Positions 19,816 through 30,401 of a stretch of DNA of 64,000 nt are shown one piece after another. The position numbers were made by a program, and so were the translations under genes. This stretch comes from Prochlorococcus sp. AG-388-E21 (GTDB lineage Bacteria; Cyanobacteriota; Cyanobacteriia; PCC-6307; Cyanobiaceae). Position 1 is the stretch's first letter, and each line of letters starts with the position of its first letter. The notes under the pieces were generated by a model. That model was not told where the DNA came from. It searched no databases and was given only the letters and a program-made list of their open reading frames with translations. Location: NCBI GenBank assembly GCA_003279855.1, contig QCGO01000002.1:186001-250000 (forward strand), written 5' to 3'.

Positions 19816-19974
19816 TTATATTGAGAATTTTTAGTACGTTAAAATATTTTTTCTTTAATCTTCTCAGTATTTATACTCATAAAATTCAAAAAATAATTTC
19901 TAATACATTATTTTGAAGTAAATTTTACAAATTAACAAATTATCTAATACCAAATTCCGTCAATTTAAAATGGT

Positions 19975-19992
19975 GGAGCCCTTCCAGGCTCC
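19975..19992 (-). terminator. Stem-loop at the 3' end of the tmRNA precursor
   Basis: A 6-bp GC-rich stem GGAGCC/GGCTCC with a 6-nt loop closes the coding half of the tmRNA. On the minus strand it is followed by ACCATTTTAAATTG, with only a short T run, so it may be a terminator or a structural element of the coding piece. Confidence 0.4.
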
Positions 19993-20040
19993 TTGGATCA
20001 TTTGGTTGATAAGGCTGATATCACCCCATCTCCTTTGAGA

Positions 20041-20091
20041 TCAAGCAGCAACAGGTGCTGTTTGACGGGAGAAACTAACGATTTTGTTAGC
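20041..20091 (-). other. tmRNA tag reading frame (ANKIVSFSRQTAPVAA)
   Basis: Starting at the GCT resume codon, 16 codons encode ANKIVSFSRQTAPVAA followed by TGA. The hydrophobic APVAA end is the degron recognised by Clp proteases. The peptide matches the tag type I know from Prochlorococcus and is the strongest organism marker in the window. Confidence 0.93.
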
Positions 20092-20298
20092 GTTTGTGTT
20101 TTTGCTCTAACCGAGCAGGCTTCAGTCATCTTCCTTACGCCCCGTCGAAACCATTACAACCCCAAAAGCTAATGGAGTTGAGCGGAATCGAACCGCTGTC
20201 CGAAACATCGGTTGAGATCACCTAGTCCAATTGGACATTTATATTCTGGCAGGCAAAATGAGTATTGAATAGTTATTTCATTAATTTTTTAAATATAA

Positions 20299-27796: not shown

Positions 27797-29065
27797 TTAA
27801 CTGAATCTTTTGATCGAATTAAAAATTATGTAAGCCAATTTTTTAACTGCACCAGTTTCTCCTCGTTGTTTTGATAAATTATCTTTTTGCTCATTTAAAT
27901 ATTTTTTATTTTTTATCAGAAATATAGCTTCATTAGCGATTTGTTTTGGTGAAATGTTGCCTATTCTTTCTGGAATAATTAACTTCTTAGCTTTTATATT
28001 TGGCCATGAAAAAAATTTTTTTTTCTTTAAGTACCAATTTTTAATTATAAAAGTGAAGAATTTATTGATAAAAGAAATTTTCCCAATTATTCCGAAGATA
28101 CCGTCCCAAGCATTCATTACATTCAGATGTTGGGTGGGTAGAATAACTATCATGGGTAAAGTAAGTGAAGCTAATTCAGCAGTATTTGCTCCGACTGTGG
28201 TAATTGCAAGATCACATTTTTTTAGTAATTCATAGCAAGGATGTTTATTAATTAAATAAATTTTTGTATTATTTGAGGTTTCAATAACATAATCAAAAAC
28301 GGAACTTTTAATTTGTTTAATTTGTTTTATTTTGGATGAATAATATTTTGATATAGGATTCTTATGACTTTGAAAGAATAAATATTCGCTTGTACTTGTA
28401 GTAGGTGCTATAGGAATAATTAAATTTATATTTTTATTGTTTTTATTAATATGATCAGCCATTTCAAGAAAGAAAGGAATACCTACCGTGAGCTTTGCTT
28501 TTTTAGAACCTGGCAGTAAAGCAATCCACTTTTTTTCTTCAAGATTTAAAGCAATTTCTTTTTTATTCGTGATGTCTGCCATTAAATCGCCAATAATTTT
28601 ACATTTATATCTATATTTTGAAGGAATGCTTTTCTTGACATTTTTATTCATTGCTGCAATAACATTGTTCCAACGTGGCCATCTTGAAATCCATTCAGCA
28701 TATGTGATGTTGATATAACCTAATCTTTTTGCTAACAAAATACTCCAAAATTGATCACCTCCAAGAAAAATAACGATTCCTTTTTGAGGCCATTTTGCAT
28801 ATTGAGCAGGCCTGATCAATAATTTCCAAAAAGTCTTTGCTTCTGTAACTAATTCAAATTTGCGCCATGATTTAGCAACTTCATATTCTTTACCAGTAGC
28901 ATTTGGACACGGTACTAAAACTAATCTTATAAAGAAATTCAGTTTATCAATATTTTTCGAGGTATCATTTATCTTATTAAGATAATCCACTACAGGTCTT
29001 ACCCACGTTGATAATTCACCAGGCCCATTAGAGATAATTACAACTGCAATTGATTCTTTTTTCAT
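27797..29065 (-). CDS. LpxB-related glycosyltransferase-like protein
   Basis: The 422-aa protein (from the ATG at 29065) resembles lipid-A-disaccharide synthase: an N-terminal VVIISNGPGELSTWVRPVV strand-loop, a central IVIFLGGDQFWSILLAKRLGY, and the sugar-nucleotide-binding ALLPGSKKAKLTVG and TVGANTAELASLTLPMIVI. It fits the cyanobacterial LpxB-related family often annotated as hypothetical, distinct from true LpxB. It presumably acts on a lipid or envelope glycan. The frame is open further upstream only because it reads through the tRNA-Leu gene; that extension is rejected. It lies 26 bp downstream of the tRNA on the same strand and may be co-transcribed. Confidence 0.75.
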   Translation of the reverse strand: MKKESIAVVIISNGPGELSTWVRPVVDYLNKINDTSKNIDKLNFFIRLVLVPCPNATGKEYEVAKSWRKFELVTEAKTFWKLLIRPAQYAKWPQKGIVIFLGGDQFWSILLAKRLGYINITYAEWISRWPRWNNVIAAMNKNVKKSIPSKYRYKCKIIGDLMADITNKKEIALNLEEKKWIALLPGSKKAKLTVGIPFFLEMADHINKNNKNINLIIPIAPTTSTSEYLFFQSHKNPISKYYSSKIKQIKQIKSSVFDYVIETSNNTKIYLINKHPCYELLKKCDLAITTVGANTAELASLTLPMIVILPTQHLNVMNAWDGIFGIIGKISFINKFFTFIIKNWYLKKKKFFSWPNIKAKKLIIPERIGNISPKQIANEAIFLIKNKKYLNEQKDNLSKQRGETGAVKKLAYIIFNSIKRFS

Positions 29066-29090: not shown

Positions 29091-29172
29091 TGCGGACGGC
29101 GAGACTTGAACTCGCAAGGCCTAAGCCACACGCTCCTTAGACGTGCGCGTCTACCAATTCCGCCACGTCCGC
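29091..29172 (-). tRNA. tRNA-Leu, anticodon AAG
   Basis: This 82-nt class II tRNA folds completely: acceptor GCGGACG/CGTCCGC, D arm GCGGAATTGGTAGACGC, anticodon stem CACGT/GCGTG (last pair U-G), loop CTAAGGA with anticodon AAG at 29138-29136, a long variable arm (GGC/GCC), T arm GCGAG-TTCAAGT-CTCGC and discriminator A. CCA is not encoded. A34 needs TadA deamination to inosine to read CUU, CUC and CUA. A TATACT box about 45 nt upstream of the 5' end could be its -10. The 5' half is duplicated 923 bp away. Confidence 0.92.
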
Positions 29173-29189
29173 CAAGGGTTTTGGAGCAC
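29133..29189 (-). repeat. Direct repeat copy 1 (tRNA-Leu 5' half plus upstream flank)
   Basis: These 57 nt match 30056-30112 in the same orientation at 54 positions (39 of the 40 tRNA nucleotides and 15 of 17 in the upstream flank). The repeat begins in the anticodon loop/stem, a common breakpoint for tRNA-targeting integrases. Confidence 0.85.
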
Positions 29190-29409
29190 CGTCGGGTGCG
29201 TAAACCTCAAAATTAGTATAGCGGATAGCCTGAAATTGGGGGTCAGTCGCCACACACGCCGTAGTGCCGACCTTGCCTAATGAATATCTGTCATCCTCAG
29301 TTAATACTTTTTATATTCCTTTAGATAATTTATGGAAACTTAAAAAATTATTGTATCCAAGTTTAAAATCAAATTAAGAGTAAAATAAATTATATTGATT
29401 TATCAAAAA

Positions 29410-29874
29410 ATGTCTTATTCAGGGTTAAAAAGTATTTTTTACAAATTAGTTTTGGTTTTATACTTCTACTCTGCTAACCCTGTTTCAGCGGAAAGTGCAT
29501 TAGATGGAAGTTATAAATCAGAATTTTTGATGAGGATGAATATGGTTGTATATCAAGGTAATTATAAGTGTCCAAGAGAAGTTCCAATAAAAATAATACT
29601 TAGAGTAGTTGGTAATCAACTATCAGGATCAATAGAAAATACTCACGAACAATGTAGTGATTGGCAAAATGCCTCAATATCAGGATCTATTGATGATGAA
29701 GGTAATTTTTTAAAAACAAAATTTATTCATAAGGATAAAATATATGGCAGACGTGAAGATGCTTACAAGATAGAAGGTAATATTCTCAGTGAAATGACGC
29801 TAAAAAGTAAATCAAGACAGTTTTGGAAAGATAAGCAATTTAAAGCAACTAAATTTAATGAATTTGGTCTTTGA
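29410..29874 (+). CDS. Orphan secreted protein between tRNA-Leu repeats
   Basis: The product (154 aa from the ATG at 29410) has a Sec-type signal: basic start, hydrophobic core KLVLVLYFYSANPVSA and a likely cleavage after VSA. The mature part is polar, beta-rich in look, with two cysteines (YKCPREVP and EQCSDW) that could form a disulfide, and GNQLSGSIENTHEQC and SISGSIDDEGNF segments reminiscent of a small lipocalin-like or ligand-binding barrel. No family recognised. It is the only gene between the full tRNA-Leu and its truncated copy, so it is probably an acquired or strain-variable gene. The frame also extends to a TTG at 29395. Confidence 0.6.
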   Translation: MSYSGLKSIFYKLVLVLYFYSANPVSAESALDGSYKSEFLMRMNMVVYQGNYKCPREVPIKIILRVVGNQLSGSIENTHEQCSDWQNASISGSIDDEGNFLKTKFIHKDKIYGRREDAYKIEGNILSEMTLKSKSRQFWKDKQFKATKFNEFGL

Positions 29875-30401
29875 GGGAAATATGAGGGAACGCTTTTTTA
29901 GGAAAATTATTATTAACTAAGACTTACTGCTACAGGGTTGTAATTTAGACGACCGCCGTAAGCATCCGACTCTTGCAGATGTGGATAGCTGAGAAATGAT
30001 AAAGGGACTGGAGTTTTAATCCAATCCCTGTATAAGTGCATTAATTTTGTGCACACTCCTTAGACGTGCGCGTCCACCAATTCCGCCACGTCCGCAAAGG
30101 GTTTTTGAGCACAAGGGTGTTCTAAAACCATCAAATTATCATACATTAATCGCATTAATTTGCGATAATATTCCAGAATCTGCTTGGTTTAGATTCTTAA
30201 AACATTTATTTTTAATTAACTAAGTTTTAAATACTTAATAATGACTGATTTTTTCTATTGCATAAATAAATAATTATCCACATATAACGTTTTAGGTTGT
30301 ATTGTTAACCAATGCATTCTTGAAATTCAAAAATTTTATTGAATACTTTTTAAAGTATTTTCAATTTAAATTAATTTTTATTTCTTCAATTTAATTTTGT
30401 A
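29875..30401. other. Gene-free 527 bp between the secreted protein and accC
   Basis: No convincing ORF is present. The stretch holds an imperfect hairpin near 30004-30030 (GGGACTGGA/TCCAATCCC), the truncated tRNA-Leu copy, a 16-bp TCGCATTAATTTGCGA near-palindrome at 30150-30165 and a long AT-rich leader to accC. I read the first half as remnants of an inserted element and the second half as the accC promoter region. Confidence 0.6.
30056..30112 (-). pseudogene. Truncated tRNA-Leu (5' half) with its upstream flank
   Basis: Nucleotides 30095-30056 on the minus strand repeat the tRNA-Leu from its first base through the AAG anticodon and G of the 3' anticodon stem, with one substitution, then diverge. 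The upstream flank is also duplicated, and a TATGATAAT-like -10 lies about 45 nt upstream, so the fragment may still be transcribed. No variable arm, T arm or 3' acceptor strand follows, so it cannot be a functional tRNA. Confidence 0.85.

Follow-up and report, generated by a model that had tools for sequence, protein, structure and literature searches.

The locus and its tRNA-Leu(AAG) gene

The window, the whole stretch of DNA analysed here, comprises 64,000 nucleotides of Prochlorococcus sp. AG-388-E21, whose genome (G000 in our set) has 1.66 Mb on 17 contigs and an estimated completeness of 100%. The features on which the argument rests are the following, in window coordinates.

27797..29065, minus strand: LpxB-like gene, directly downstream of the tRNA gene and used as synteny anchor (profile matches)
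29091..29172, minus strand: tRNA-Leu(AAG), complete, 82 nt, without encoded CCA (ARAGORN, Rfam, orthologue alignment)
29134..29140, minus strand: anticodon loop CTAAGGA (positions 32-38); anticodon at 29136-29138, with A34 at 29138
29173..29312, minus strand: phage-derived flank (92.9% identity with viral contig L430 over 140 nt)
29215..29220, minus strand: candidate -10-like TATACT in that flank, 48 nt before the tRNA (consensus only)
29410..29874, plus strand: 154-aa ORF with no assigned function inside the insert (mechanical ORF)
29944..30050, minus strand: other phage arm, beside the truncated copy (91.6% over 107 nt to L430)
30052..30095, minus strand: truncated 5' half of tRNA-Leu(AAG), read as the stranded native half at one end of a scar (direct repeat D1)
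30096..30400, minus strand: the tRNA gene's native upstream region, joined today to the truncated copy (identity to relatives)

An earlier note on this DNA, made from the letters, had read the loop CTAAGGA as that of a tRNA-Leu with the A34 anticodon AAG, and this is borne out. ARAGORN calls a minus-strand tRNA-Leu(aag) at 29091-29172, an interval that Rfam RF00005 also matches, with 53.1 bits (gathering score 29), and both the loop as read and the cloverleaf of the orthologues agree. In an alignment of 12 orthologues of the window tRNA-Leu, 11 of them distinct, the cloverleaf pairs are standard in 253/253 cells (23 pairs in 11 distinct orthologues). Five pairs, one in each of five helices, have changed on both sides, a number reached by 0 of 500 shuffles and falling to 0-1 when the alignment is slid. 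A fold with GAG or TAA as anticodon, which the same note had raised, is disfavoured by this pairing and its compensatory changes. The free-energy minimum of the naked tRNA-Leu sequence is not the cloverleaf and was given little weight.

Several records under the title Prochlorococcus (L164, L196, L207 and L230 among them) match the tRNA with full identity over its 82 nt. The exact pattern is matched by 16 of the 19 genomes of the window's genus, the remaining three being 50-76% complete, and the loop is CTAAGGA in all 16; two further same-genus counts, from sets that overlap with these, are also entirely AAG (5/5 and 6/6 matched genomes). A sequencing error is therefore excluded. The truncated copy with the same anticodon had been offered as the error check. 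That copy is real (30052-30095), but as half of a scar it gives no independent confirmation.

Thirty-seven tRNA genes were found in G000 (150 of 175 candidates scored). Their leucine anticodons are AAG, UAG, CAA and UAA, with neither Leu GAG nor Leu CAG among the 37, so the suspected lack of a GAG form is confirmed for this gene set. A pattern search of G000 for A34 or G34 leucine tRNAs agrees, returning one gene, to which looser matching adds just its truncated copy. The sole other A34 tRNA among the 37 genes is Arg(ACG). A permuted tmRNA of cyanobacterial type with the tag ANKIVSFSRQTAPVAA lies at 19950-20262.

One conserved place with two loop states

The LpxB-like protein matches Pfam LpxB with 41 bits and TIGR03492 under its cut-off. 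Its gene was found in 30/30 genomes, one per genus of the same cyanobacterial family, and a tRNA-Leu lies just upstream of it in all 30 genera, GAG in 23 and AAG in 7. Since the LpxB-anchored position is the same, AAG was derived from GAG, or GAG from AAG, in place; an origin from a CAG tRNA, suggested among the matches listed, is ruled out by synteny. Every GAG copy in this set has the loop TTGAGGG and every AAG copy CTAAGGA.

The same two loops were recovered with a family-wide pattern that leaves positions 32 and 38 free (N) and requires R at 34, with stems restricted such that loop variants on unusual stems are missed. It matched 135 of 149 family genomes, once each, with 96 TTGAGGG, 39 CTAAGGA and no other loop; two of the 14 genomes without a match are at least 90% complete (G098 and G162). 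No genome among the 135 held AAG and GAG together under this pattern, and both states occur within the genera g45, g54 and g63. Pattern matches at 23 off-genus loci were taken as chance, ARAGORN finding no tRNA in 14/14 tested. In a second Prochlorococcus lineage (L162, L167, L169, L210; genus g67, genome G085) the anticodon stem carries a compensatory change (CATGT/ACATG) and the D-loop reads GGTATAC, with the loop still CTAAGGA.

Number and direction of the switches

Fitch parsimony gave 6 switches on a maximum-likelihood tree of the LpxB-like and SMC proteins from 29 genomes, which left out G054, G073 and G076 (LpxB only). The SMC proteins of 29 genomes taken by themselves also gave 6, TadA, whose gene is unlinked, gave 5 (38 genomes, 12 of them AAG), and a FastTree phylogeny of the LpxB-like proteins of 65 genomes (26 AAG) gave 9. 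Shuffling the AAG/GAG labels on the 65-genome tree gave a mean of 20.7 and a minimum of 14 switches, and a single AAG clade was rejected with p-AU 2e-9 (29 genomes). That the loop switched several times is firm; the count of nine is not, because deep nodes of the 29-genome tree are weak (support 46-49) and the LpxB and SMC genes adjoin the tRNA. The inferred root state is GAG in the 65-genome LpxB-like, SMC-alone and TadA trees and ambiguous in the LpxB-like plus SMC tree. A recombination tract was looked for in g45. Its GAG member shows mostly 60-85% identity with the AAG members throughout, and this genus therefore offers no recent switch to dissect.

TadA and the probable inosine at position 34

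A TadA is encoded at G000:C3:108721-109215. It scores 116.8-117.7 bits against NF008113, under the curated cut-off of 150; among 14 control genomes the same model gave 5 matches above the cut-off, 7 below it and 2 genomes without a match. Solved relatives of the protein include 3ocq, 1z3a and 2b3j, of which we take 1z3a to be the TadA of E. coli and 2b3j that of S. aureus. TadA was present in 30/30 genomes searched (9 AAG, 21 GAG). The AAG genome G114 (93% complete) gave a weak TadA match only, in a 375-aa frame that is probably RibD, and none was found in the AAG genome G108 (64% complete); both absences may be assembly gaps. In an exploratory comparison of TadA alignment columns between AAG and GAG genomes, no residue clearly separated the two states. 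The best column, position 60, presumably the equivalent of E. coli R51, was rejected as confounded by ancestry and base composition.

The tRNA-Arg(ACG) loop of G000, CTACGGA, is one base off the leucine loop, the difference lying at position 35; in S. pyogenes the Arg and Leu loops are reported to differ at 35 and 37. The mRNA sites edited by S. pyogenes TadA follow the motif YUAMGRA (PMC11472039), which CUAAGGA fits at all seven positions in 39/39 AAG genomes. A GAG loop changed by G34A alone (UUAAGGG) misses this motif, as the final A is absent. S. pyogenes TadA is reported to edit tRNA-Leu(AAG) fully (PMC11472039), and in vitro editing of this tRNA by a Streptococcus TadA is also described (PMC13249217). 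E. coli TadA left the streptococcal Leu(AAG) unedited (PMC11472039), so the presence of a TadA alone is insufficient.

We consider it likely that, taken as a whole, the locus is best explained by a TadA-edited I34 leucine tRNA derived from a GAG tRNA, with loop switching coupled to TadA. The tRNA would descend from a standard GAG tRNA of this very locus, and in the family the loop has alternated several times between U-U-GAG-G-G and C-U-AAG-G-A. In the transcript A34 would become I34, probably through the housekeeping TadA that edits tRNA-Arg(ACG), and the window tRNA would most likely be read as IAG. It would then decode CUU, CUC and CUA, and it appears to be, as far as found, the sole tRNA dedicated to leucine CUU and CUC. 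We propose that A38, and C32 with it, accompanied A34 because TadA requires a loop resembling the one in tRNA-Arg(ACG). The deamination itself, the demand of TadA as the cause of the base coupling, and the decoding are each our reading of sequences. C32 may be favoured since U32 could pair with A38. The Y of YUAMGRA does not demand C32, and U32 occurs in 11 of the 80 AAG loci examined from at least 119 matches. A complete tRNA-Leu(AAG) with the loop TTAAGGG lies on the 195-kb phage contig L435 (L435:575-657), so G38 together with A34 can exist. This loop is the intermediate form, which was not seen in the host family.

A prophage scar and the phage contigs that carry the tRNA half

The partial copy lies 914 nt upstream of the tRNA in the window. 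The region adjoining it (30096-30400) is 92-95% identical to four relatives over about 300 nt and 79-81% identical to other relatives over about 150-164 nt, while of the sequence preceding the full tRNA all but the final 40-64 nt is foreign. An accC motif found 245-322 nt upstream of the tRNA in other loci is 1244 nt away in the window. The partial copy is missing in 38/38 other clade loci with 628-2500 nt examined, some of which may be one genome under two names, and among all family loci scanned (mostly 1.5 kb either side) it occurs in the window genome only. The flank at 29173-29312 retains the C-terminal part of an integrase-like frame, whose stop codon falls within the tRNA. The 879-nt insert is without an intact integrase, and the contig that matches it at both ends carries an integrase together with a phage RNA polymerase. 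A search of the insert, 29173-30051, against phages gave no match, and its 154-aa ORF had no Pfam match, no viral contig match and just E 0.04-0.06 in PHROGs.

Six IMG/VR contigs hold the AAG tRNA from nucleotide 1 to nucleotide 42-46 and then pass into other sequence. In L430 the stretches on either side of this tRNA half match the window insert, one next to the full tRNA and the other next to the truncated copy (identities as listed above). L425, L426 and L428 match more weakly at both ends (72-76%), L427, whose contig ends at the tRNA half, at one end, and the neighbours of the half in L429 did not match the insert. A wider pattern adds six contigs with a GAG half (TTGAGGG). Six further matches to it were rejected as attP, their tRNA body being different; four of these (L433, L435, L438, L442) have complete leucine tRNA genes, and ARAGORN found none in L432 and L436. 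It found no complete tRNA in the loci of the 12 halves either. All 12 contigs have an ORF of 179-370 aa on the same strand whose end falls anywhere from 106 nt ahead of the half to 36 nt inside it, and the half itself ends 0-7 nt past the loop, one being cut by the contig end. In the four contigs tested (L425, L430, L440, L441) this ORF matches the integrase family PF00589; the other eight have an ORF in the same position. A phage RNA polymerase comes next in 3/3 tested, as seen by Pfam in L430 and L441 and by PHROGs in L430 and L440. Of the six AAG-type contigs, five have an integrase frame that enters the half and ends with the TAA of the loop. This stop is U33-A34-A35 of the half in L425, L427, L428 and L430 (L426 is cut by the locus end); in a GAG loop the same frame would stop too (TGA). 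A -10-like element identified by consensus only (TATAAT, TACAAT or TATACT) lies at 45-48 nt in 6/6 AAG-class contigs, as against none within 75 nt in four GAG-class contigs and only TACCAT at 56 nt in the other two.

Because the arms of L430 match both insert ends, and phage integrases adjoin the tRNA half, we firmly interpret the insert between tRNA-Leu and accC as a decayed prophage and the truncated copy as its scar. The working tRNA is, on the same evidence, hybrid: its upstream flank comes from the phage and its 3' half from the host. Its 5' half is very probably phage-derived, a conclusion drawn from the arrangement of the scar, since the two halves are too alike for sequence to tell. 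Tycheposons are marked by an integrase of tycheposon type at a tRNA gene, a mark that a decayed element such as this insert may have lost.

Do phages move the loop alleles?

Integration of a cyanophage with the tRNA 5' half in its attP would replace promoter and 5' half, the loop included, and so phages might move loop alleles, changing three bases in one step, which would account for the missing intermediate loops. We regard this as possible yet doubtful; it is compatible with the TadA-coupled explanation and not its exclusive alternative. The AAG half is found on six viral contigs and the GAG half on six others, an ORF ends near the half in all of them with an integrase in each of the four tested, and the window tRNA itself is hybrid in this way. 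The flanks of G108 (g54) match the AAG genus g42 best on both sides, consistent with import or shared ancestry. Against this, 6/6 AAG-type attP have the tRNA body of high-light Prochlorococcus and none that of the other AAG lineages, and the AAG genus g67 shares D-arm bases with the GAG genus g15. The AAG genomes G036 and G084 have flanks closest to GAG relatives on both sides, and those of G114 are likewise GAG-like, with an AAG genome leading by one bit downstream. The partial copy occurs in the window genome alone among the family loci scanned, and no scar showed a switch. Of the other AAG genomes checked, G067, G087 and G085 have flanks of mixed AAG/GAG affinity, and for G082 the nearest matches on either side are GAG-like.

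Leucine codon usage and a possible reading without inosine

In Lactobacillales, leucine usage is reported to have shifted towards CUU and CUC and away from UUA (PMC13249217), a reported effect and not a defining feature of tRNA-Leu(IAG). We compared 24 family genomes of similar base composition (11 AAG, 13 GAG), counting 5,099-11,515 codons each in mechanical ORFs of at least 150 aa from 40 kb per genome. Fractions in AAG and GAG genomes were.269 and.267 for UUA,.271 and.271 for CUU, and.073 and.074 for CUC, and for these three codons as for UUG and CUG no difference was found between the 11 and the 13 genomes. Thus, the Lactobacillales recoding from UUA to CUU/CUC is not repeated in this sample. 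CUA was used at 0.145 in AAG and 0.127 in GAG genomes (p 0.0175, uncorrected over six codons; GC3-adjusted p 0.015; by genus p 0.023), in the expected direction in 4 of 6 hand-picked AAG/GAG pairs. A control expected to be equal, C versus U ending in six other codon boxes, also gave a GC3-adjusted p of 0.017, so the CUA excess is at most a hint of a real effect.

These data bear on the idea that A34 is left as plain adenosine, reading CUU and, weakly, CUC, and that the loop change tunes the 32-38 pair for decoding and is no TadA signal. Under expanded wobble rules an unmodified A pairs most strongly with U and modestly with C (PMC11066159), which would suit such a tRNA. Yet the loop satisfies the published TadA motif throughout, Leu(AAG) is reported to be edited in O. 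oeni, S. pyogenes and S. mutans, and the slightly higher use of CUA in AAG genomes weakly hints the same way. We therefore think it unlikely that A34 is left unedited, and retain inosine as the probable state.

Do phages select the switch?

The loop might instead be the region exchanged by the integrase, such that changing three bases of seven lets the host escape a phage's range. This, too, is compatible with TadA editing and not its exclusive alternative, and we hold it improbable. In its favour, all 12 tRNA halves end just past the loop. The half carried by P-SSP7 is of Leu(UAA) and ends at the loop, and the tRNA-Leu half of S-TIP37, S-TIP28 and S-CBP1 has a CAG loop; phages thus differ in this very loop. 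However, the argument is one from sequence, the exchange site is placed only within the shared 40 nt, and podoviruses of the P-SSP7 kind are mostly lytic.

P-SSP7 was considered as a user of the present tRNA and rejected, its half being Leu(UAA) instead, and no cyanopodovirus was found when named phages were searched with the whole tRNA. L444, L445, L446 and L443 are cyanopodoviruses with 5' halves of different leucine tRNAs (CAG loop, UAA). The anticodon loop may be a common exchange site of cyanopodoviruses. The sites of P-SSP7 and of the contigs in PMC3861242 resemble those described here in having an integrase by the phage RNA polymerase gene and the 5' part of a host tRNA-Leu as attP. The tRNA-Leu matches given in PMC3861242 are 42 bp and 39 bp long. 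In contrast to P-SSP7 (UAA) and S-TIP37, S-TIP28 and S-CBP1 (CAG), the present halves fall into an AAG and a GAG class on IMG/VR contigs.

More generally, we put forward only tentatively that the wobble base is coupled to phage integration, cyanophages exchanging at the anticodon loop of this tRNA and circulating both alleles, so that they would either carry the three-base switch from host to host or select for it. If true, reading by G34 or I34 would be toggled by the contest between phage and host, and TadA would leave the host just two loops that work. As for an assembly error, pseudogene or tRNA-like repeat, for which the second, truncated copy could be cited, the complete and compensated cloverleaf, the conserved place and the many orthologues refute it, and we give it practically no credence.

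Distribution and the published record

The strict pattern AATTGGTAKACRCGCNNNNYTAAGGA, which fixes G36, G37 and A38 and is silent on variation there, gave at least 119 stretches in the genomes of 84,980 species. All 80 loci examined from these contain tRNA-Leu(AAG) by ARAGORN, 27 with cyanobacterial titles and 53 without. Among the matches listed, the non-cyanobacterial loci include Akkermansiaceae, other Verrucomicrobiota, Synergistaceae, Alphaproteobacteria, Myxococcales, Clostridiales (Firmicutes), Mollicutes, Weissella, Lacticaseibacillus and others, and most are metagenome bins. The earlier note had called A34 outside Arg(ACG) uncommon. This calls for some qualification, given AAG in at least 80 loci, 53 of them outside cyanobacterial titles. 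Rafels-Ybern and colleagues reportedly published papers on bacterial A34 tRNAs in 2018 and 2019.

Almost all bacterial tRNA-Leu(AAG) genes are placed in Bacilli by PMC13249217, with further cases in Mycoplasma and Prochlorococcus; the spread seen here is wider than that paper states. The Prochlorococcus Leu AAG is accordingly already published, in one sentence of its concluding remarks. That sentence concerns the same anticodon and genus and gives no sequence, locus, loop, phylogeny or phage link. In a limited literature search we found no published account of the two-state loop and its repeated switching at the LpxB locus, of a truncated tRNA-Leu(AAG) copy as a prophage scar, of phage attP with AAG and GAG versions of this tRNA's 5' half, of the lack of Lactobacillales-type leucine recoding here, or of tRNA-Leu(AAG) in Verrucomicrobiota. 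The nearest known system is the tRNA-Leu(IAG) of Lactobacillales (Oenococcus oeni, Streptococcus pyogenes, S. mutans), where an A34 leucine tRNA also replaces GAG, with TadA and a YUAMGRA-type loop. Unlike there, two states alternate here in one family at one locus, and the leucine codon shift is not seen (24 GC-matched genomes).

Meaning for the family

The gene, its conserved place, the two-state loop, the repeated switching and the scar are firm, and inosine at position 34 is probable. Eukaryotes went from a single inosine tRNA to several, a step that few bacteria were believed to have begun. Here one and the same tRNA has crossed the A34 line several times within a single cyanobacterial family, which amounts to a set of natural replicates. 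These reveal which bases change together and allow the specificity of TadA to be compared among relatives, and they do not repeat the codon recoding of Lactobacillales. The overlap with a phage attachment site provides a testable reason why the loop may have changed as a block.
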